Assembly (NCBI RefSeq): GCF_032854445.1
Contig: NC_088300.1
Location: 35,383,608-35,447,607 of the forward strand
From: Liolophura sinensis
Lineage: Eukaryota; Mollusca; Polyplacophora; Chitonida; Chitonidae
Length of the DNA stretch: 64,000 nucleotides
Direction of reading: 5' to 3'
In this document: in pieces, positions 191 through 47,100 of the stretch
Layout: each line of letters begins with the position of its first letter
How positions within the stretch are numbered: the stretch's first letter is position 1
Made by a program: the position numbers and the translations under genes
The notes under the pieces: model-generated
Databases searched by the model: none
The model's input: the letters and a program-made list of their open reading frames with translations, nothing else
What the model was told of the DNA's origin: nothing

Positions 191-3100
191 CCATTCATTT
201 TGGTGAAAATTCAACCATGGGCTCTCATTTATGATCGGTTGCCTTTTGTTTCAGAGAACAAGGAAAATTCCGATCAATCAAAATTGGTCGTAGAAGCATT
301 GGATGCATCATTGGATAATTACTGGCAGATCGTATCTGACAAGCCACAGGTCAACCCCAAGCCTAAAATTGCTCCTGTTGTCTTTAACCCTTGGGAAGAG
401 GGTAAGTTATTAGTTAAAGTATCTTAAGAAGTGCACTTGTTTTCTCCAGGTGATGTCCAGTACCTTGAGAGATCCTCTGGTTTTCTTCAGGTCATGAGCA
501 GTACCTTGAGAGATCCACTGGTTTTCTTCAGGTTACGTCTAGTACCTTTAGCGGTCCACTGGTTTTCTTCAGGTGATGAGCAGTACCTTAAGAGACCCTC
601 TGGTTTTCTTCAGGTGATGAGCAGTACCATTAGCGGTCCACTGGTTTTCTTCAGGTGATGAGCAGTACCTTGAGAGGTCCACTTGTTTTCTCCAGGTGAT
701 GTCCAGTACCTTGAGAGATCCTCTGGTTTTCTTCAGGTTCTGTTCAACAACTTGAGAAGTGCGCTGGTTTTCTTCAGGTTCTGTCCAGTAAGTTGAGAAG
801 TGCACTGGTTTTCTTCAGGTTCTGTCCAGTAAGTTGAGAAGTGTACTGGTATTCTTCAGGTTCTGTCCAGTAACTTGAGAAGTGTACTGGTGTTCTTCAG
901 GTTCTGTCCAGTAACTTGAAAAGTGCCCTGATGTTCTTTAGGTTCTGTTCAATAACTTGAGAAGTGCACTGGTTTCCTTCAGGTTCTGTCCAGTAAGTTG
1001 AGAAGTGCACTGGTTTTCTTCAGGTTCTGTCCAGTAAGTTGAGAAGTGCACTGGTGTTCTTCAGGTTCTGTCTAGTAACTTGAGAAGTGCCCTGGTGTTC
1101 TTCAGGTTCTGTTCAATAACTTGAGAAGTGCACTGGTTTTCTTCAGGTTCTTTCCAGTAAGTTGAGAAGTGTACTGGTATTCTTCAGGTTCTGTCCAGTA
1201 AGTTGAGAAGTGCCCTGGTGTTCTTCAGGTTCTGTTCAATAACTTGAGAAATGCACTGGTTTTCTTCAGGTTCTGTCCAGTAACTTGAGAAGTGCATTGG
1301 TTTTCTTCAGGTTCTGTCCAGTAACTTGAGAAGTGAACTGGTGTTCTTCAGGTTCTGTTCAGTAACTTGAAAAGTGCCCTGATGTTCTTTAGGTTCTGTT
1401 CAATAACTTGAGAAGTGCACTGGTTTCCTTCAGGTTCTGTCCAGTAAGTTGAGAAGTGCACTGGTTTTCTTCAGGTTCTGTCCAGTAAGTTGAGAAGTGC
1501 ACTGGTGTTCTTCAGGTTCTGTCTAGTAACTTGAGAAGTGCACTGGTTTTCTTCAGGTTATGTCCAGTAACCTGAAAAGTGCACCGGTTTTTCTTCAGGT
1601 TCTGTCCAGTAACTTGAGAAGTGCACTGGTTTTCTTCAGATTTACTTCAGTGCTCTGGATTCTTCTGGAAACCATATCCTGCTATTATCACACAACAACC
1701 AGATCAAAATGAATCCCTTTTGGTTCCATTTCTGTGTATGGTCACATTACTCTTAACTGGATCAGATGTTTACTCTCTGAATTTATCAAAAGTCTTTAAA
1801 TTGTTTGGTATAAACCTGTTACAGTTAGATGGTGGACTGCTGTGTTGTAGTTTATGGTAAATTTCAGTATGACCTGTATCAGAAAGAAATCTAATATTTT
1901 AAAATTTTGTTCAATCTTTGACATGCTGTTTCATATGTACCTGAACATTTCTTGAAATGAGTGATAGTTTAGTTCAGTTGTTATATTTCTGTCTACAGTA
2001 CTTAAGTTAAATAGGTCAGAAATTGTATCCCCATTGTGTATAAACTAGACCTACATGTAACAAGCCCTTGTTTGATGGTTACAGGTTTTGAAGTGATGTT
2101 TGACCTGTACTGATCTGAGTTTTGTGTCTTATAGGCTCAGACCAGGAAATGTACTCTCCAGAGAAGAAGGTGGAGAAGAAAATAGATCAGCTAGAGAGAC
2201 AGACAGCTCTGTCTGAAGCAGTCAGGCCTGCACCTGATATCAGGCAGATCCTGCCAGCACAGACAGGTAAGCCCAGCTCACACAACATGTTGTTAAGGTT
2301 TAGTAATTACCACTGTCCAACGGGGTGATCAGCTGGAGAGACAGATAGCTCTGTCTGAGGCGGTCAAATCTGCCTGTGATGTCAGAGAGATCCTGCCAGC
2401 ACAGATAGGTAAGCTCAGCTCACACAACACTTTAAGATTTATTAATTACCACTGTACAACGAGGTGATCAGCTGGAGAGACAGCTCTGTCTGAGACAATC
2501 AAGTCTGCCTGTGATGTCAGAGAGATCCTGCCAGCATAGACAGGTAAGCTCAGCTCTCACAACACTTTGTTAGGATTTAGTAATAACCACTGTACAACCA
2601 GGTGATCAGCTGGAGATACGGATAGCCTCATCTGCAATGGTCAGGTCTGCCCCTGATGTCAGGCTGACCTTGCCAGCACAGACAGGTAAGCTCAGCTCAT
2701 ACAACACTTTGTTAGGATTTAGTAATTACCACTGTACAACCAGGTGATCAGCTGGAGATACAGATAGCCCCATCTGCAATGGTCAGGTCTGCCCGTGATG
2801 TCAGGCAGACCTTGCCAGCACAGACAGGTAAGCTCAGCTCACATAACACTTTGTTAGGGTTTAGTAATTACCACTGTACAACCAGGTGATCAGCTGGAGA
2901 TACAGATAGCCCCATCTGCAATGGTCAGGTCTGCCCGTGATGTCAGGCAGACCTTGCCAGCACAGACAGGTAAGCTCAGCTCACACAACACTTTGTTAGG
3001 ATTTAGTAATTACCACTGTACAACCAGGTGATCAGCTGGAGATACAGATAGCCCCATCTGCAATGGTCAGGTCTGCCCGTGATGTCAGGCAGACCTTGCC

Positions 3101-6100
3101 AGCACAGACAGGTAAGCTCAGCTCACATAACACTTTGTTAGGGTTTAGTAATTACCACTGTACAACCAGGTGATCAGCTGGAGATACAGATAGCCCCATC
3201 TGCAATGGTCAGGTCTGCCCCTAATGTCAGGCAGACCTTGCCAGCACAGACAGGTAAGCTCAGCTCACACAACACTTTAGTGATTATCACAAGGATTTAG
3301 TGATAACCGCTGTGCAGCCAGGTGATCAGCTGGAGAGACAGATAGCTCTGTCCTCGGTGATCAGTTCTGCCCCTGATGTCAGACAGACCTTGTTAGCTCA
3401 GCTCATACTGTTAGTAATATTTTACTCAGCTCATTTTGTTCAGGTTTAGTAATAGGCCTGCTCAGAATTACTTTCTTTGTTACACGACAGCAACTGCAAT
3501 GTAACGCTAGGATAGGTTTTTTAGGCCTGATGCTACGAGAAGTGATACCTCGCCTATTAAAGCATGCACTATGTAGGTTATGTCACAACAGTCACAAATA
3601 TTTTCTAGACCACAGAATGTAATCTCTTTCAGAGCCGCAGAAATGTGGAGAGATCACAAATGTGGTCGATGTTTTTGAGCTTAATGGTAGAATATACAAC
3701 ATTTGACAGAGTTCGCCATAGCTGTCAATTGTATTTAATTAGGGTTTTTAATAAAAATTGTTTATCCTGGACTTTGAAACAGGTTTACAAATTTAAAAGA
3801 TGCCTTAAAGCTAGGTGTAGGTCTAACCAGCTTATTCCGCTTCAAGTTTGATACTAACCATTCTCTTTATTCTGAGGTCCCACCTAACCACAGTTTACTC
3901 CTAAAAATGCACTTCTTAAATCGAAGAGCGGCGTCAAGAAAGATAATTCGGTGCTGCTCTATTGTACAACCTGTCGACAGTTTACCATTGTAAAAATGCC
4001 AGGCCGATGCAGCCTACAAAAATGTTGGTTCTTCTAATCGTATGGCTTAGAAAATAGTAAGATCTGATGACACCACTCAGATTTCCTTCTTGGATATTCT
4101 CTGAGCAGAATTTTATGCAGTCTTATATCCTATGTAGTCATAGACATATAGAGCTATTCCAGAGCAACATGTTGAGTTTAATCTGGAAAACAAAAAACCC
4201 GTATGAAGTCGGCAGATCTTATTTTGTAAATGTTGTCATTAAAACTCAGATTGTATTTTATATTTGAATTAGATGGCCTATAATTTGAAAATTAGAAAAT
4301 AAAAATACTATTAATTATTTTCTAAGTTTTAATTAGTCTTTGATGTGTATATCAACCAGATCATATTACAGAATCAATGAAATCAAGCTGTGTACTTCTT
4401 TTCTTATCTTTGTAGAAGTGAAGTCTAACATTCTTTCAAGGCTAGGACGTAAACGTGCTGGCAGTGACACTTTAAAGGATAGCAGTGGCCCTTCTGAAGA
4501 GAAGATTCCTAAGGAATTAGGGCAAAAAGCTGCAACTAACAACAGGCTAAAAGTCACTAAGAATGTACCAGAACAAAGTAAAGGTATTATACAGTATATG
4601 GCTGATCCTTCTTTTTTAGTTTGATAACTGCATCAGAGATTTATCAAATAAAATTGGTCTTTGCCTTTTACCCTGTTTTGCTTCTTCTCCTGATGTACTT
4701 ATTTGTGAAACGGTTCCAGAAAAATTTCTTTCCTACAGATATAGAATCTGGGCCAAGAAAGTTTTCCCTTTATATCAATGGCGTCAAAGGCTAATTTGTA
4801 TATGATAGGTTTAAGAAATTAATTTATTGTATTTCCATTCTTGTATTGAACTTGGTGATTGTATTAGTAAGGTTACACAACACTTCAAACACTATTGAGT
4901 TAGTGTTTCTTTTTCATAATTTCTTTGCATACATGTAGCTTTGCGACTGAATTAATCTTATACATTGTTTTTTTTTTGAGGGTGGGGAGGGGGATTTTTT
5001 GTCGAACTTATTTATTATTCAATGTATCTTATTCTTTATTTCCAATCAGCACCAAAGAACAGTGACAGTGGATTGACGATGAAGACAAAAAGAGAGATAT
5101 ATGTGCCTCCAGCTAAGAGAAGTAAGAAATGTTAGTGCTATTGCTGTCTCCCTTTGTAAGTGTTCAACATAAAACGGTTAACCATACCTTCCATGCTGTG
5201 ACTAAGTATAAATTGAATGAACACCATATACCCATATCGCTTGTAATCGCTGTAAGGTTTTCACAGATGCATTGACAGATTGCATTTTGACTTTGGACTC
5301 ACTGAATACCTTTCTTAGGGTCACACAACATACATAATGTTCCTTCTCAGAGAGTATTCTTGTAGGATTATTAACTGTACACTGTAGGAGTATCAGCAGC
5401 TTGTCCAGAAAGTGAAAAAAAATGATAAACTTAAACTGAGAATTACACCTCATTTGGTGTATTTGTCAGGCACAAGTCCAGTCAAACCACCAGTGAAAAG
5501 CCAGAGTACAAGCCATCTGAAGGAATGTGAGAACAAATCAACCCCAGCAATCTTATCGGTGAGTTGTCAAACAGATTGCAGTTGTAATTGCTACATGTAC
5601 TTCTTTCAGAATTCCTGTCTCATGTATTTTTGAGGGATTAACATTATGCTTTTAAGCTCTCAACTAAATATAAGGTAAATGAGGTAAAATTTGGCAATGA
5701 CCCAATTGCAGACTTGCCTGATTCTGAAAGTTATGTTTAACCTAAAAGGTGTTTTAAAGATTGTTTGGAAGGATAATATCCCACTGAAAAATGGTTCAGC
5801 ACCAAAAGTAACATTCTGTTACATTTATTTTCCTTTAAGAATGCACTTTTTGGGTCAAATTTTAGGTCTTTTAGCAGACATTGCATGAAAGAGAATGCAG
5901 CATTTGGCTATATTGGTCATAGTCTCTCGAAATAGCTTTTAGAATTAAAATTATTAAGGTGGCTTAATATCCCTCAACCTGATAAAATTATGATTTGATT
6001 TTGTGGAAGAAAGTTTGGGGCATTATTGATTTCACCATTCAGTCTTCTTCAAATGCATTTGATTGTGTTAATTAGATTGAGAAAATTCAGATGTCTGGCT

Positions 6101-8405
6101 GTTATTTGTCTTGCCATTTGTCGGATTATCTGGCCTAAACCAAGTCCTACTTAATAAAAAAATAGTGCTGCTTAGAATTTGTCAACGTGTTTGAGTTGTT
6201 GTGATGTCTTTTAATGTCTTTAAGGTACTGTGGTGTCCAACAAATTATCATTTTACACCATTGATTATGTTAAGCTAGAAATTTCTTTCACAGAGAAACC
6301 TTTGCCACTTTCAGCTTAGATAAAAACTATTCCTCCTCCTTGATTTACAGGGAACATCAGAAATTGTGGTTAAATCCTTCGATGAAATAATGAGGGAGAA
6401 GCGCAAAAGATTAGCTCTTGAAAAAGCAGCAGCCAAAACGAATACGTCTACACAGAATAAAGAAACAAAGCAAACTGCAAACTCTGGTACAGTATCTTTT
6501 GTTTCCTTGCAGAATTAAGAATTGTTGGAAAGTTTGGGAATGCGTCAAAAATGTAACGAGTGTAATATCCTGTGGAACAGAAGCTAGTGCTCTTGTAGTG
6601 TAACAAGTGTAATATCCTGTGGAACAGAAGCTAGTGCTCTTGTAGTGTAACAAGTGTAATATCCTGTGGAACAGAAGCTAGTGCTCTTGTAGTATTATAA
6701 GTGTAATATCCTGTGGAACAGAAGCTAGTGCTCTTGTAGTATAACAAGTGTAATATCCTGTAGAACAGAAGCTAGTGCTCTTGTAGTATTATAAGTGTAA
6801 TATCCTGTGGAACAGAAGCTAGTGCTCTTGTAGTATAACAAGTGTAATATCCTGTGGAACAGAAGCTAGTGCTCTTGTAGTATTATAAGTGTAATATCCT
6901 GTGGAACAGAAGCTAGTGCTCTTGTATTGTCACATGTAATAGTACATGAAACAAGCTATAAAGCCTCAAATTGATTTTTTTTGTACAAATCCTGGGATAC
7001 TTGGCGAAGGTTTCACCGAGCACTCTGGTTTCCTTCACCTCTAAACCTCTAAATAATTCTGGAACATGGTGTTAAATACGAAGGAATCAATCATGTCTTT
7101 CACTGAATGGATCCATTTCACAATTGTAATATAATATATAGTAATGTAATATATCTGTAATATAGTGTTGCACATATTTAATTTTTCAAATAACTTCTGG
7201 TTTGTGGTGCTATGCCTCAACTCACTCCAGTAAAGTAATGTTGCGTAAATGTCATTATGAAAATGTCATTCATGTTATGTTCCCAAGACTTTCTTACTTT
7301 CAGTGTCTTCCACTCTTTGTGTTGATCTGGTTTAGCAGTTTGTTTAATATTTATGGTTATTTTATTCTCCTTCTAGCGGCAAAGCGGCAACCAATATCCC
7401 TCAAGAAAAAGGTCAGCGTTACTCTGGCAGCTTCTTCAAGTGCTAAAACTGTCTCAGCAGCAGTTTCATCAGAAGTGTCTGCACCAAAACAGACAGCCTC
7501 TGAAGGGGCTTCATTAAAAGCAACTGTATTGGATGGAGCCATATCTGGCAAGTCAGCAGTAAAGGGAGGCAATCCACAAGTGTCCAAATCTGAAAGTGCT
7601 ATTTCAAAGAAGACTGTGTGTTCAGGACTAAAAACAAAGGTTTCTACAGAAATTACTACTAAAGGGTCAAAACAACCAGGAGAGGCATCAAAGAGAGTAG
7701 AATCTTCTGTGTCTGTAAGAAAAGTGACAGGGGCATCTCCAAAAGGAGTCGAATCATCAGGAGGTGTTTCAAGAAAAGAGTCTGTGGAAGATTCTTCTAA
7801 AAAGTTGACTGAAGTTCCATCAACAGAGTTGACAACAAAGGAGGCTGTTATGGTGGAGAAGTCGGACAAAGGACTTGATATACCGCAAGATAAAAGCGAT
7901 GAACACAAAGCTGACAATGATAGAATATCTGTGGCATCATCAAAGTCACAACCAGATGATGTCACGAAGAGAAAACCTTCCTTTGAAACACAACGGTATG
8001 TTCATTTAGCATATTTACATGTACTGTCTATTTGTATTGTATTTACTAGTTCGCATTCATTATTCATCATGAACTGTTTTACTCCAACGTTACAGTAACT
8101 ACCTTGGTATCCGTAAGAAAATTAGTATGTACATGTATATATTTCAGACAAACCCATTTGTTGCAACTCTTTGTGTGGAAAAGGGTTTTGTTGAATTTCC
8201 AAAGATTTTCTATTACCCGAGGTTTTAAAGTGTTATAGTTGTACTGTCTGGTTTTCGCCCTTATTCTTGCAGGTCCAAGGACTCGCGGCTGTCCCTGGGG
8301 AGTGTGGGAGATGACCTGGATCTGTTTTTGTTGGAAGATGGCGACGTTAAAGATGTTGACCATAGCGAGGATATTCTTGAGAAAATTGAAATGCTGCTAC
8401 AGTAG
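191..8405 (+). CDS. ZC3H11A: ZC3H11A-like protein, 3' part of the gene (5' end outside window)
   Basis: Eight coding exons join in phase: 191-401, 2135-2266, 4416-4583, 5050-5121, 5470-5558, 6351-6486, 7377-7995, 8273-8405 (stop TAG), giving 519 aa of the C-terminal part. All boundaries are GT-AG. What is seen: a motif VKSNILSRLGRKRAG, a later VVKSFDEIMREKRKRLALEK helix, a Ser/Lys/Val-rich disordered exon (7377-7995), and an acidic end, DDLDLFLLEDGDVKDVDHSE. Human ZC3H11A has the same order of parts: repeated ERLGKR-like and IKTxxEIxxEK motifs and a short acidic leucine-rich tail. It is a nuclear, RNA-binding, TREX-associated mRNA export factor. The diagnostic N-terminal CCCH fingers would lie upstream of the window, so the identification rests on low-complexity motifs and is moderate. 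The gene converges on PIFO. Confidence 0.6.
430..1640 (+). repeat. 41-bp minisatellite with splice-site-like units (about 29 copies)
   Basis: Fills most of the first visible intron of the ZC3H11A-like gene. A typical unit joins GTTCTGTCCAGTAAGTTGAG to AAGTGCACTGGTTTTCTTCA plus G. The first six or so units are a diverged subfamily (GTGATGAGCAGTACC...). The block beginning TTGAAAAGTGCCCTGATG at 916 recurs at 1367, so a higher-order period of 451 bp (11 units) is visible. Confidence 0.95.
2135..3410 (+). repeat. Tandem array of exon-derived copies, mostly 142-bp period
   Basis: The array is made from the 3' end of exon 2135-2266 plus the adjoining intron. Exon-like copies lie at 2325-2408 (open, but GG instead of acceptor AG), 2464-2543 (4-nt deletion and frameshift), 2602-2685, 2744-2827, 2886-2969, 3028-3111 and 3170-3253 (five intact 84-nt copies), and a truncated one from 3322 without a donor. 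Each intact copy is preceded by CAACCAG and followed by GTAAGC, and reads in phase 1-1 as ..DQLEIQIAPSAMVRSA... and related sequences. Linker variants alternate (CACATAAC/CACACAAC), suggesting a 284-bp dimer. Confidence 0.9.
3458..3962 (+). mobile_element. About 505-bp non-autonomous element with imperfect inverted ends, copy 1
   Basis: Homologous along its length to 59252-59765, in the same orientation. The left end reads CTGCTCAGAATTACTTTCTT. The reverse complement of the right end reads GCAGCACCGAATTATCTTTC, so the termini are imperfect inverted repeats. Shared internal blocks include GAAGTGATACCTCG / GAAGTGAAACCTCG and TGAGGTCCCAC. No coding capacity is seen. It sits in an intron of the ZC3H11A-like gene. 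Confidence 0.75.
6553..6926 (+). repeat. 47-bp minisatellite (about 8 copies)
   Basis: The unit contains AAGTGTAATATCCTGTGGAA followed by CAGAAGCTAGTGCTCTTGTA. From 6648 on, units starting ATTATAAG and ATAACAAG alternate, giving a 94-bp dimer. It begins about 65 bp after the donor of exon 6351-6486. Confidence 0.95.
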
Positions 8406-41100: not shown

Positions 41101-44100
41101 AGTATTTAGCATTTAATATACGATGGCAGTCAGCTTCATGGGTGGACGTAATCAGTGTGCGTACAGTATATCACTGACCTCAAGATAGCAACTAAACAAC
41201 ACCCTCTTACATCTGATGCAGATTTTCACACGAGATATCTGACCAATTCATGTAACGCCACCTCAAGAGTCCCACTACTAGGTTTTACCACCAAGCAAGA
41301 TTCCCACTTTGTACCAAGAACAATACAGATTTATTTATTTATTTATTTATTTATTTGATTGGTGTTTTACTCCGTACTCAAGAATATTTACTTATTTGAC
41401 AGCAGCCAGCATTATGGTGGGAGGAAACCCCAGGGGAAACCCATGACCATCCACTGCTTGCTGGCAGACCTTCCCACGTACGGCCGGAAAGGAAACCAGC
41501 ATGAGTTGGACTTGAACTCACAGCAACCGCATTGGAGAGAGGCTTCTGGGTCATTGCGTAACACCACCTTGGCCCCACACTAGAGACAAAAATATCGCCA
41601 ACGCGCCCGCCACCCATCCCCCCCCACCCCCAACAACTATTTCTGGGACTGAACCTACACCTCAAATGTCTAAAAAGAGTGTTAATAATGAAAATCCCTG
41701 ATAAGTGATAGTCTGGGGAGAGACTGAGCCCTGAAAAGTGGCAACACTCAATGAGTACACTCATTGCAATCCCCTCATATACTAACCGTGCCAGCCTTCT
41801 GCTTATTGGTCAACTCCACCGCTGATGACGGAAGGTCGTCCGTTTTATTCAGAAACACCACACTGCTGATTTTATCAGTCATGTCCTCTTTTTTATCTTT
41901 TTCATAGTCCGGGGACACAACAATATTGTCATCATCATCCAGGGGAGACATGTCCATATCTACCACCTCCATTGTCTCACTCTGCCCAGAGGTCAAACCC
42001 TTTCCCCCTGGGCCAGACCGAGACGCAGACCCAGACAGAGTGGCTGTTGGGGGGAGAGGCACTTTGAATATTCCTTTAGCGCCTTCACCACCAGTTTTGC
42101 CACCTGCCTTCCCTAATCTATTACCTGCCCCATCTCCTCGTCGAGTCAGACCAACCAGCTGAGCCTGCAGGTTTAACAGCTTGCTTATTTCATTCAGGGG
42201 ATTCACCTGGCCTGCCTGGGTGGATGCTGTCTGAGCATGGCTGGTACGAGGACTGGATTCCACTTTATGTTGCTCTGGCCCATCAGCAGACTGGGGCTGT
42301 AGTGGGTTCTGCACCACAGCATGTCTCGGGTCTTCACGCACTGGAAACATAGGGGCAAAGTGACGAGGGCCTCCCATGCCTTCTGCAGGAAGCCCCTCAA
42401 AGCCACCATTCACAGGATTGGGACGGGACGGGATCGGTGACGGACCTGGGGGAAATGGACCGGGAAAGCGAGGCACCATGCCCTGCTCTTTCAATGGATT
42501 TCTTTCAAAACGGTTTTGCACTTGGATGACCCCTTGGGGGTCCACATTGGGCCAGCCAAATCGAGGCATTCCACCAGGCACTTGAGGCAGTCTTGCAAAG
42601 GGAGGGGGTCTGTTGAGGAGGAGGGGATTCACAACAAGGTGAGGAGTGGGAGGTACACTGTGTAGGCCTGGGGGAAATCCGGGAGGCAACATACCCAGGC
42701 TCATCGGAATTTGCCCAAGGCCTTGCGGTGGCAGAACGCTAATCATGCCTGGTTCTCTAGGCAGAAAAAAACTGCCGTCTCCTAGCAAACCAGTACTGCC
42801 ACCACCTGGGCTCTGTAACCTGTTGCCCATGACAAAGTCTGACCTCTGGTGGATGCCCATGGGCATGTCCGCAGGCACTTCCTCGATATTCTTCTGGTCC
42901 AACACTGGTGGGCTGGCTGTGTCCGTCGGCACAGAGGGATCATACATGGTGTCCAGCTGGGTGTGATTCACCTCCATGGACTGACTATTTTTCAGGTAGG
43001 ATGCAGGAGTCGGAAGTAAAGGAGCTGAACGAAAGGGAATTTCTTTGGGAAACACACCCTTATCTGAGTTGCTACAAAGCTGTGATTCAGAGCTTGGAAA
43101 AATTGCATTTTCACTGAAATCACCCTTAGCACTTTTTTCTGTTGACTCCTGAGGATTGTCTTTGGTGAACGGTAAACTAATTTTTGCACTCTTGCTATCA
43201 TCTAAGTCCGCTGCCTTATTTTCCAATTCACTCGGCCAGATGCCTTCATCTTTAGCAGATTTAGAGTCACCAGCAGTCCTGTCCTCACTCACTTTTTTAA
43301 TGTCTACCCTGTCTGAGGATTTGCTCACAGATTGCTTGATACTAACAGAAGTCTCACTAGGCCTATCTTTGTCTTCATCTGCCCAGTCTGTCACATGAAA
43401 CACTTCCTTGAATCCTGAATTCACCTTCAAATCAATTTTATCCTTCACCTTTGGTGTTAACTTTTCACGTAAATCTCCTTTGAATGGGCTGTCTAGTTTC
43501 TCCCTTAAGTCACTTTTACTGCGAGATTCGAGCTTTTCCCTTAAGTCTACTTTTTCTAAGGATGAATCATGTCTTTCCTTCCAGGAATCACTTCTACCTT
43601 CCTTTGAACTACTTCTGTCTTTAGATTTATCCCCAACTTTGTGGCTGGAGTCTGCTTTGTCTCTTGAGTAACTCTTAGAGTCAAGTTTACTGTTCTTGGG
43701 GCTGCGTTTCCGTCTCCCAGAAGAAGAGTGTTCGTAGTCCTCTGTTTCTTCCTCCAGTCCTTTGTCAGAGTTTCCATGACTCCTGTCCCGCCTCTTCCGC
43801 TTGTGGCGCTGCGACCTTTCGTGCCTCTCGTGGTCTGACCTTGACCCTGACCTACTTCTCACATTTCGCTCGTGTCGTCGCTTACGTCTGCTGCGATCTT
43901 TAGACCCTGACCTCTGTGTGTCTTCTTTGGACCTCCACTTGTCACGTGACCTTCGCCGATCATGGGAACGACTGCGGGATCTGTTCCGACCATGTTCCCG
44001 GGACCGACTTAGCGACCGGTCGCGTGAGTAGCGTTTGTTGCTGTGTGAGGCGTCCCCATGAGTCACAATCAAGCCTCCTTTGTCCATCAGAACAACGCGT

Positions 44101-47100
44101 CTTTTATCAGATGCACCAGATCGCCTCCGAGAATCGTCATCGTCATCGGACAAGTCTCTCTGTCGACTTAAGCGACTTGACAATTTCTTGTCCCGCCGGT
44201 CACCTTCCAATCTCTTCCCATCTTCACTTCTTCCTCTCGACTCTTTCTTCTCCCAGTGACTCTTGGACTCTGGGAACTCCAGCCTCTGTAACACACTCCT
44301 TCCCTCCTCCTCCCCAGCCTCTTCTTCGTCTTCATCCTCTATAGTGATCACCTCAATCGGATTTGGCAGCTTTTTCTTCTTGGGTATCCTAGGGAGTTCG
44401 GATATGGGCACTCTTGGTCGCGAGTCTTCTCTTGAACTGTCATCACTGTCCACAGAAAGCACATGGTCATAGTGAGCAGAGGACACAGCCTGTTCACCTG
44501 AGGCATCCTCTGCAAGTTCCTGCTCACCCTGCTCACTTTGCTCACCATCCACAGCCTGGTCTTCACCCTCCTCCACACCTCCACCAGCTTTCAAACTGTC
44601 CTCTTCCCCCTTCTCCAGCTCACTATTCTCTTGTACAGTTTGGTTTTCTTTCCCAATCTCTGGTGAACAAAAGCCCTCTGAGGAGGGCGTGACTGGAGTA
44701 GCAGGTGTTCTTCCCCCACTATTGTCAGAGTGCTGGGCTGAGAAATGGGGTTCATCCATAGTTTCATGTACAGTGGGGGACACAGGTTTATCCTGGAACA
44801 CCCAGCCTGGGGGTGGGGACTTGTTCCTGTCACGGCAAGGTGAGACTCCCCCAGGGGAATCAAATTCTCTGGCTAAGCCCACTTCGGCGACCAGCACAGC
44901 TTCCCGTGGGTCCACCTCGCTGTCTGTATATGGGGATTTATTCAAATCTGCGTCCGTATCCACAGCACTCTCCTCCTTCCTCCCTTCAGACTCCATCTCA
45001 GTATCCTCTGTCCTAGAATTCTCCCTGTTCCTGAGGTTTTCTGCCTCGCTAGGGGTGTCCTCCATGCTGATGGTTTCTGCTTTGCTAGAGCTCCCCTCCA
45101 TGCTGGTTGTTCCTCCTTTCTTAGGGATGTCCTCTTTACTGGGTGCTTCTTCATTTTTGCTGCTTCTCCCTTTGTCTTCATGTAGTGGTTTGTTTGCTGT
45201 CAGACTTCCTGTTCAAAAACAAAAACAAAAACAAAACAAAAAGTGAAAGAAAAGTATAGACAGAATAAATCTCCAGGCTTAAGTATATATTTTGTTCCGA
45301 TTTTTTTCCTCCAACCCCTGAGTTGGTTTAAGATGTAATTATTTCCATATTTACTACATGTACAATGAATGATCTATAATTTCGCCTCGGAAAAAAATGA
45401 ACATACCCTAATTCCTCAACCCTTTCGAATATGAAAGAGCTATTTTCAGTGCAATCTATGCACATTTTTAATTTGATTTTGAAGACAAAAACTACAATGG
45501 TTGGATTGGCGAGTTTCAGGGCTTCACAAAAAGTGAAATTTTATTAGTCAACACAGAATAATGCTTTCAGAATATGCTTGAATAAAAACCTTGCAAATAA
45601 ATTAACATTAATTACTTTACCGCGCTGAAATCTAGTATAGGATAGGATATCACACAACCTTTCAAACAAACCTCAAAACAACTTTTCCAGACCAACAGAA
45701 CTCATTTCCTGTATATATCTGCTACAAAGCCTAGGCATGAAGATCCATATGTTCTCATTTATCATCATCAACGGAAAGCTTACTCAGCACGTAAGACCAA
45801 CTTACCATCCCTGTTGATTGTGATATCTTTGCTGGTCAGATTGAGTAGCTTCTGCTCCTGCATGATTGAACCCAGAATGTCTATCGGTCCACAGGAAGTG
45901 GACGGTGCAACCACAGCAGGCATGGACGGCTCTTTATTGCTACAAGGTAACCATTTCAATTCATTTCAATTTCAAGCCCATTCTGTTCATGTTATGCTTG
46001 TCATGTTGAAAGTGAAATAAACTCATGTTCATGTTTGAAATATACCTTCAAATTTTAATGCCTAAGTACGACATTACTCAGTGTTTCATCATATGTAAAC
46101 TTGATGTTTAACACATACCATACGGCACATTACACAAAGTAGATATTTCAGGGTTGCAAAACACCAGAGCTTTTTAAAGATACCAAATATGTTCTATTAT
46201 TTACATGAAAAATCGTTTAGAAAATGTCAAATTCAACCACACTTTTTTTACTCTGTAACTTACCATCCCAGTCGAGGTGGTTTTTGTACAGGACGGTGAG
46301 ACTGAAGCGCTGACTTAGAGTACCTTGAGGGGCCAGGCTGTGGCTCTCCATGACCAGCTTCGTCTCTGTCACGATACAGAATATAACATGTGAGGAGCAA
46401 TGTTACAGCTTGAGCAGGAGATAAATGTCAAACACATACACCGATTGGCTGACAATGGGAAGAGAAGAAACACCAACTGACTGACACTATGGACAGAAGT
46501 ACTAACTGCCTGACTCTGGAGACTGGAGACAGGGCACAATAACATGTACAACAATGATAATTTGTCTTAAAAGAAGTGGGGGGAGGGGGGAAATTTGATG
46601 TCATTTGCAATACTTCATGTCAGGCAGCTACTAAGCAAACATGAATCATTCAGAACTAGGGGCCGATTCCACACAGCCATTTCTGACTTAAGTCAAAATT
46701 TGAAATACAATTTTAAGGCTAATTCTGGGGCCCAATAAATTAAAATTTGGTTTGTTATCTTTAGGCAAATGTGTCTACATTTCAGCTTCTAGTACCAAAA
46801 ACTAGGCATTATTGGGAAGTTTATACATTTTGGCTTAAGTCAGAAATGACTTGTGGAATTGGCCCCAGCTTCCGTGTGCGGATGCGCTTACCCGTCCTGG
46901 AACGAGAGCAGTTCATCCTTACAGCCCAAGATAGACAGAGAGGAGATACCCACTGCTGCTCGCTGCCCCTCCATGCTCTTCTCTTGTGTCATTTTCTGCA
47001 GAGGGATAGTACGACCCACAGGGGGTTTGGAAAGGCCCAGTCGGCCAGCTATTCTAGCCTTTGGTGTTACTGACGGGGCAAAAGCGGCACTTCTGGGAGA

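Follow-up and report, generated by a model that had tools for sequence, protein, structure and literature searches.

Exon-like copies in a 142-bp minisatellite at an exon boundary of a chiton ZC3H11A-family gene

Is a row of exon-like copies inside an intron a bank of spare exons, or is it something that is simply thrown away with the rest of the intron? The question is raised by a 64,000-nt stretch of the genome of the chiton Liolophura sinensis (NC_088300.1, positions 35,383,608 to 35,447,607 of the forward strand; this whole stretch is 'the window', and coordinates below are positions within it unless a contig is named), where a gene of the ZC3H11A family carries, starting inside one of its coding exons, a tandem array whose copies look like small in-frame exons. 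The initial annotation of this DNA had offered two readings of these copies, namely a new protein repeat of variable copy number or a recently homogenised array whose frames happened to be open by chance. Our answer, to which we would give a probability of about 0.82, is that the array is an exon–intron-boundary minisatellite of the type called 'mirage' in amphioxus, and that its copies are most likely removed from the transcript together with the intron.

The array and its host gene

What has been repeated here is quite clear. Tandem Repeats Finder (TRF) places the array at 2185-3392 on the forward strand, with a period of 142 bp, 8.5 copies and 89% matches, and alignment resolves the repeat unit into the last 82 nt of the parent exon, the donor and 58-60 nt of intron, just as the initial annotation had proposed in describing an exon end and its adjacent intron amplified at this period. 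The tandem unit thus crosses an exon–intron boundary: it starts inside the parent coding exon (2135-2266, forward strand, 132 nt, phase 1-1), whose tail at 2185-2266 is the unit's exon part. A genome search with one unit returned nine matches, all within C6:35385792-35387008, which is the array at 2185-3392 and nothing else, with the proviso that an unmatched locus in such a search is no proof of absence there. We rejected a mobile element as the carrier of the unit since that search, made with one unit, found no second genomic locus.

Five consecutive copies, all on the forward strand like the other copies, have the complete appearance of an exon, exactly as had been described: copy 3 (2602-2685), copy 4 (2744-2827), copy 5 (2886-2969), copy 6 (3028-3111) and copy 7 (3170-3253) are each exactly 84 nt long, preceded by ...TACAACCAG, which includes CAACCAG, and followed by GTAAGCTC, which provides GTAAGC. 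Each of these cassettes is symmetric (phase 1-1) and open in the phase-1 frame, for 28 residues apiece. The copies at the edges are broken, as the initial annotation also held. Copy 1 (2327-2465) keeps an open frame and has GG in place of the AG acceptor, copy 2 (2466-2603) is frameshifted by a 4-nt deletion within its exon part, and copy 8 (3324-3430) is degenerate with its donor deleted; in copy 7 the intron part that follows the cassette has diverged and is 10 nt longer. While these edge copies have diverged, the inner copies have been homogenised, and the array is recent. Indeed, copies 4 (unit start 2746) and 6 (unit start 3030) are identical over the full 142 nt, and a single exon sequence is common to copies 4, 5 and 6, so the five open frames cannot be counted as independent. 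AG/GT splice signals are present in many copies, and the seam between units reads CCAG followed directly by GTGATC. The 28-residue unit was also considered as a possible protein domain, and this candidate was dropped: a Pfam search with a typed triple repeat gave only matches below the cut-off, which we took as chance, the best being RseC_MucC at 20.2 bits against a cut-off of 24.4.

The host gene is placed in its family by a match to PF15663 (zf-CCCH_3) above the curated cut-off, at 110.9 bits against 31, computed on residues 1-347 of the joined protein. Two zinc-finger exons that match the same profile in a genome profile search lie just 5' of the window, and to these we have linked exons at 255-401, 2135-2266, 4416-4583, 5050-5121, 5470-5558, 6351-6486, 7377-7995 and 8273-8405, with junctions deduced from the sequence alone. 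The joined frame, from the zinc-finger exons to the stop at 8405, is open with 0, 1, 2, 3, 4 or 5 cassettes, so that the early claim that any number could be inserted without a frame shift is borne out. The next exon that we take to be constitutive, 4416-4583 on the forward strand, has an acceptor scoring 7.5, against 2.0-3.6 for the cassettes. The same gene has further arrays. One, with a 41-bp unit and 29.8 copies (418-1639), begins 17 nt 3' of exon 255-401, and in it TTTTCTTCAG directly followed by GT occurs in 15 of 28 scored sites, with a top acceptor score of 11.8, above all the real acceptors that we sampled; another, the third, has a 47-bp unit, 7.9 copies and 95% matches (6554-6926) and starts about 70 nt 3' of exon 6351-6486.

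Constraint, chance and splice signals

Are the exon parts of the copies under constraint? We compared exon part with intron part in nine units (the parent and copies 1-8), and of the 36 pairs, 17 differed more in the exon part, 17 more in the intron part and 2 equally in both. When copies 7 and 8 are set aside, 21 pairs remain, of which 15 differ more in the exon part, 4 more in the intron part and 2 equally. The parent and copy 4, for example, differ at 16/82 positions in the exon part and 8/60 in the intron part. Copies 1 and 2 differ from the young copies far more in the exon part, significantly so in six pairs (p<0.05), as with copies 2 and 5 (16/78 exon, 2/60 intron; Fisher p 0.004), and exchange limited to the intron part could be the cause of this excess. 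The intron part is the more divergent in eight pairs with copy 8, which is truncated and in which little of the intron part is present and correctly aligned, and in five pairs with copy 7.

Codon changes tell much the same story. The initial annotation had named the ratio of nonsynonymous to synonymous change between copies (dN/dS) as a check; with copy 2 omitted for its deletion and copy 8 trimmed to 72 nt, none of these pairs departs from neutrality at the 0.05 level, and the lowest p is 0.06 (parent and copy 8). The parent and copy 4 give a ratio of 0.56 (p 0.34), and within the cluster of copies 3-7 every difference is nonsynonymous (four to none between copies 3 and 4, two to none between copies 4 and 7). 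Coding constraint, by which a functional array of cassette exons was to be recognised, therefore finds no consistent support. The frames are open mainly because the copies descend from a coding exon, and when the parent frame is evolved neutrally in simulation, 60% of the copies remain open after 16 substitutions. The idea of a recently homogenised array with chance-open frames thus survives in its first half, as the identity of copies 4 and 6 attests, and gives way to descent in its second.

Nor is a ready-made cassette in such a unit surprising in itself. A phase-matched open cassette turned up in 56% of dinucleotide-preserving shuffles of the unit's intron part and in 37% of units with random bases of genomic composition, and the real unit holds two AGs that provide one (84 and 105 nt). 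The copies resemble ready-made exons because the open frame and the strong donor come from the parent and an AG at the seam falls, by chance, in phase.

The splice signals of the copies are of very different quality at their two ends. Their donor, inherited from the parent exon, ties the highest score among 27 sampled donors, of which it is itself one. For the acceptors, scored with a matrix built on 28 acceptors of the same genome (10 from the host gene and 18 from chaperonin genes), copy 3 reaches 2.0 bits and copies 4-7 reach 3.6 bits, compared with a median of 7.6 and a minimum of 1.2 for the real acceptors scored leave-one-out (n=28); among 180 decoy intronic AGs of the host gene, 17% reach 3.6 and 27% reach 2.0. 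The cassette acceptor is accordingly weak, yet not impossible, and the poor pyrimidine tract remarked on from the start is real. Joining adjacent copies would in addition require introns of 58 nt. Among 25 inferred introns none is shorter than 269 nt (one of the 19 inferred in one set was left out for a 10-residue misfit), and three further introns of about 150, 170-180 and 230 nt were inferred from profile hits with internal stops. We saw none near 58 nt, but sampling by profile hits would hide them, because a hit can pass through a short intron. The inclusion of a single copy, on the other hand, would use introns of normal length.

How might such an array have come about? The 3' end of the coding exon would have been duplicated in tandem into the intron, together with its 5' splice site and the adjoining 58-60 nt of intron; unequal exchange or slippage would probably then have amplified and homogenised the duplicate. 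The parent donor (2267) is most likely joined to the acceptor of ordinary strength at 4416, with the array discarded, since the parent exon and its donor are intact at the array's 5' edge.

Boundary arrays elsewhere in the genome and in other animals

If this array is a by-product of minisatellite growth, is it alone? As a comparison we took 149 exons, with their flanks, from a profile search of the same genome with three unrelated families: 43 of 50 listed matches to the chaperonin family CCT (13 with internal stops), 46 of 81 listed myosin matches, chosen down the table with gaps and so not at random (one of 47 chosen exons was left out, as no piece held it entire), and 60 of 132 listed kinesin matches, these being the first 60 without internal stops. 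Of the 149, 8 have their donor junction within a tandem array and 5 their acceptor junction, and such arrays at exon boundaries were found in all three families. In one chaperonin exon the last 90 nt or so, the donor and 16 nt of intron are repeated several times, and in a myosin gene an exon end is repeated at 31 bp; arrays that span or abut exon boundaries in these chaperonin, myosin and kinesin genes are those at loci L002, L006, L011, L024, L028, L034, L056, L092 and L094.

A second measure, recurrence of the junction 20-mer in the adjoining intron with up to four mismatches, likewise gave 8 donors and 5 acceptors of 149; the controls gave 16 of 148 positions within introns (for which a shorter stretch was searched), 2 of 149 within exons and none of 149 in shuffled introns. 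The two donor lists have seven members in common and the two acceptor lists are identical. One exon listed by both measures, C8:53412069, is among the 13 CCT matches with internal stops and is dubious because its profile hit runs through an intron, and two acceptor calls, C10:35282571 and C10:8002604, seem by eye to stop short of the likely acceptor, making five an upper figure. On the donor side, tandem arrays cover 2.6% of positions 20-60 nt inside the profile hit and about 16% of those more than 220 nt outside it; coverage on the acceptor side climbs likewise, from 0.5% inside to 14% outside. Intronic tandem arrays occur at 10 of 12 long loci, with none of the set size at L001 and L003. That donor sites are special targets of duplication was first hinted by the three host-gene arrays at or just 3' of donors and by four in the CCT and myosin sample; we dropped the idea on the split of 8 donors against 5 acceptors of 149 (binomial p 0.58) and on the intronic controls, which recur more often than the junctions. 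Exon-boundary minisatellites seem, then, to be common in the chiton genome, and the ZC3H11A array is one of many, given the boundary junctions found in arrays among these 149 other exons.

The closest known relatives are in amphioxus. Mirages are tandem duplicates of an exon–intron boundary, with AG/GT signals in many of their units, and have been described in the globin genes BflGb6 and BflGb9, Adh3, troponin C and PGBD5 (PMC3087553; PMC3902484). In BflGb9 it is a 3' exon boundary that is duplicated, in a 157-bp unit, while in BflGb6 haplotypes differ in copy number and the edge copies escape homogenisation (PMC3087553); cited transcript data suggest that splicing is undisturbed (PMC3087553; PMC3902484), and the authors propose mirages as an origin of new introns (PMC3087553). 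The chiton array is like these in duplicating an exon–intron boundary, in bearing splice signals in many units, and in being homogenised inside and degenerate at its edges. It differs in belonging to a mollusc and to another gene, and in having an in-phase AG in each of five units; and whereas haplotype length variation and normal splicing are reported for the amphioxus arrays, the chiton array is known from the sequence of one assembly.

Other precedents are looser. In human segmentally duplicated genes, internal tandem repeats at exon–intron boundaries are reported to create splice variants (PMC2812944); the chiton array shares their position, but the human repeats have transcript support and differ between paralogues, while ours is a single locus seen as genomic sequence. 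The Rogers model, as cited in PMC3087553, has introns gained by a tandem duplication carrying AG/GT, and the chiton duplication carries a site of this AGGT type at its seam, although the model yields a new intron and none is known to be spliced in the chiton array. In abalone, a 27-bp intronic minisatellite varies in copy number (PMC6905558). Our literature search, which fell short of the whole literature, found no report of exon-boundary arrays in chitons among the papers that it listed, and the frequency of mirage-type arrays in a mollusc may be new.

The published chiton assembly, of 632 scaffolds, was first named Liolophura japonica (PMC11068029), a name that its authors later corrected to L. 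sinensis (PMC12441733). In its repeat table the class 'other (simple repeat, microsatellite, RNA)' accounts for 0.08% and the unclassified share is 14.04% (PMC11068029), and minisatellites may be under-annotated there; in our 149-exon sample tandem arrays occupy about 9-16% of positions 180-340 nt outside the exon hits. Further observations concern other parts of this genome. C99, with seven COX1 matches spaced at about 15.5 kb, one of them shorter, is a mitochondrial concatemer left as a contig, and C632 also has a COX1 match; we take the order of the mitochondrial frames under table 5 to be nad3-nad2-cox1-cox2-atp6, the genes having been named by eye from their translations. Within the window, a 1145-codon open frame on the minus strand (41778-45212) has a best Pfam match of 14 bits against a cut-off of 27, which is unconvincing.

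Weighing the alternatives

Several points weigh against reading the array as a discarded minisatellite, and they deserve to be set out together. Five consecutive copies with the full set of CAG, 84 nt and GTAAGC make a tidy picture. The acceptor scores of the cassettes exceed those of 7-32% of the sampled real acceptors, and single-copy inclusion is feasible; for copy 3, for example, the flanking introns would measure 335 and 1730 nt. Copy 7 differs from copies 4 and 6 at 2/82 exon and 9/60 intron positions (p 0.009 for each pair) and from copy 5 at 2/82 and 7/60 (p 0.04), which taken alone is equally expected from constraint on the exon; we read this pattern, in an intron part at the array's edge, as edge decay, because all the significant pairs with a more divergent intron part include copy 7 or the truncated copy 8. 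The parent–copy dN/dS ratios are all below 1 (0.38-0.64), none significantly, values that constraint on the parent lineage could likewise produce. Finally, the acceptor model comes from 28 sites, short introns are under-represented in the intron sample, and the exon boundaries of the 149-exon sample were inferred from profile hits.

Could one copy be included now and then, as splicing noise? The product would be an in-frame insertion of 28 residues, open to later recruitment as an exon, a route proposed in the published mirage model (PMC3087553) and one compatible with the mirage reading. The donor equal to the best in our sample (which includes it), an acceptor that overlaps the weakest real ones and the maintained frame all make this conceivable, but the acceptor is indistinguishable from many decoys and amphioxus mirages are reported without disturbance of splicing (PMC3087553; PMC3902484), and we regard it as rather unlikely. 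A bolder version is a long shot: that chiton introns are so rich in minisatellites, with about one exon end in 20-30 duplicated into the adjacent intron, that in-frame candidate exons are continually produced, and that the ZC3H11A batch is already included at a low level, in numbers that vary between individuals.

We think it very unlikely that the copies form a bank of functional cassette exons, of which none to five would be spliced in, with the length of the ZC3H11A linker varying with the array between individuals. The symmetric phase, open frames, strong donors and a joined frame complete with 0-5 copies are what made the idea attractive, and the smaller exon than intron differences between copy 7 and copies 4-6 (p 0.009-0.04) might be added. 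Against it stand the lack of consistent constraint (17 of 36 pairs each way) or of any significant synonymous excess, an acceptor that is weak and, among intronic AGs, ordinary, inter-copy introns of 58 nt where the shortest seen is about 150 nt, and the appearance of the same property by chance in 37-56% of shuffled units. A variable-copy protein repeat, the first of the two readings in the initial annotation, is thus not supported.

A role for the amplified donors as decoys, tuning how the host intron is spliced, is highly improbable; a strong donor does stand in several copies within one intron, and the upstream array with acceptor-like sites precedes the same exon (2135-2266), but intronic tandem arrays in unrelated genes too (the 10 of 12 loci above) make a special role for this one unneeded. 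A false tandem expansion in the assembly, for which the two identical 142-nt copies might speak, is scarcely credible when HiFi reads averaging 8,347 bp exceed the 1.2-kb array (PMC11068029) and the remaining copies differ among themselves.

An exon-boundary minisatellite whose copies are most likely removed with the intron is what we are left with, and against its own genome this single ZC3H11A array is ordinary. A word of caution follows for anyone who meets a similar locus, which is that exon-like units are to be expected within boundary arrays through descent and chance. The wider pattern is the more interesting part. The mirage papers that we consulted deal with lancelets only, and the chiton has such arrays in all three of the families that we sampled. 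If the pattern holds genome-wide, chitons would be well suited to testing a long-standing proposal, namely that boundary duplications become exons or introns.

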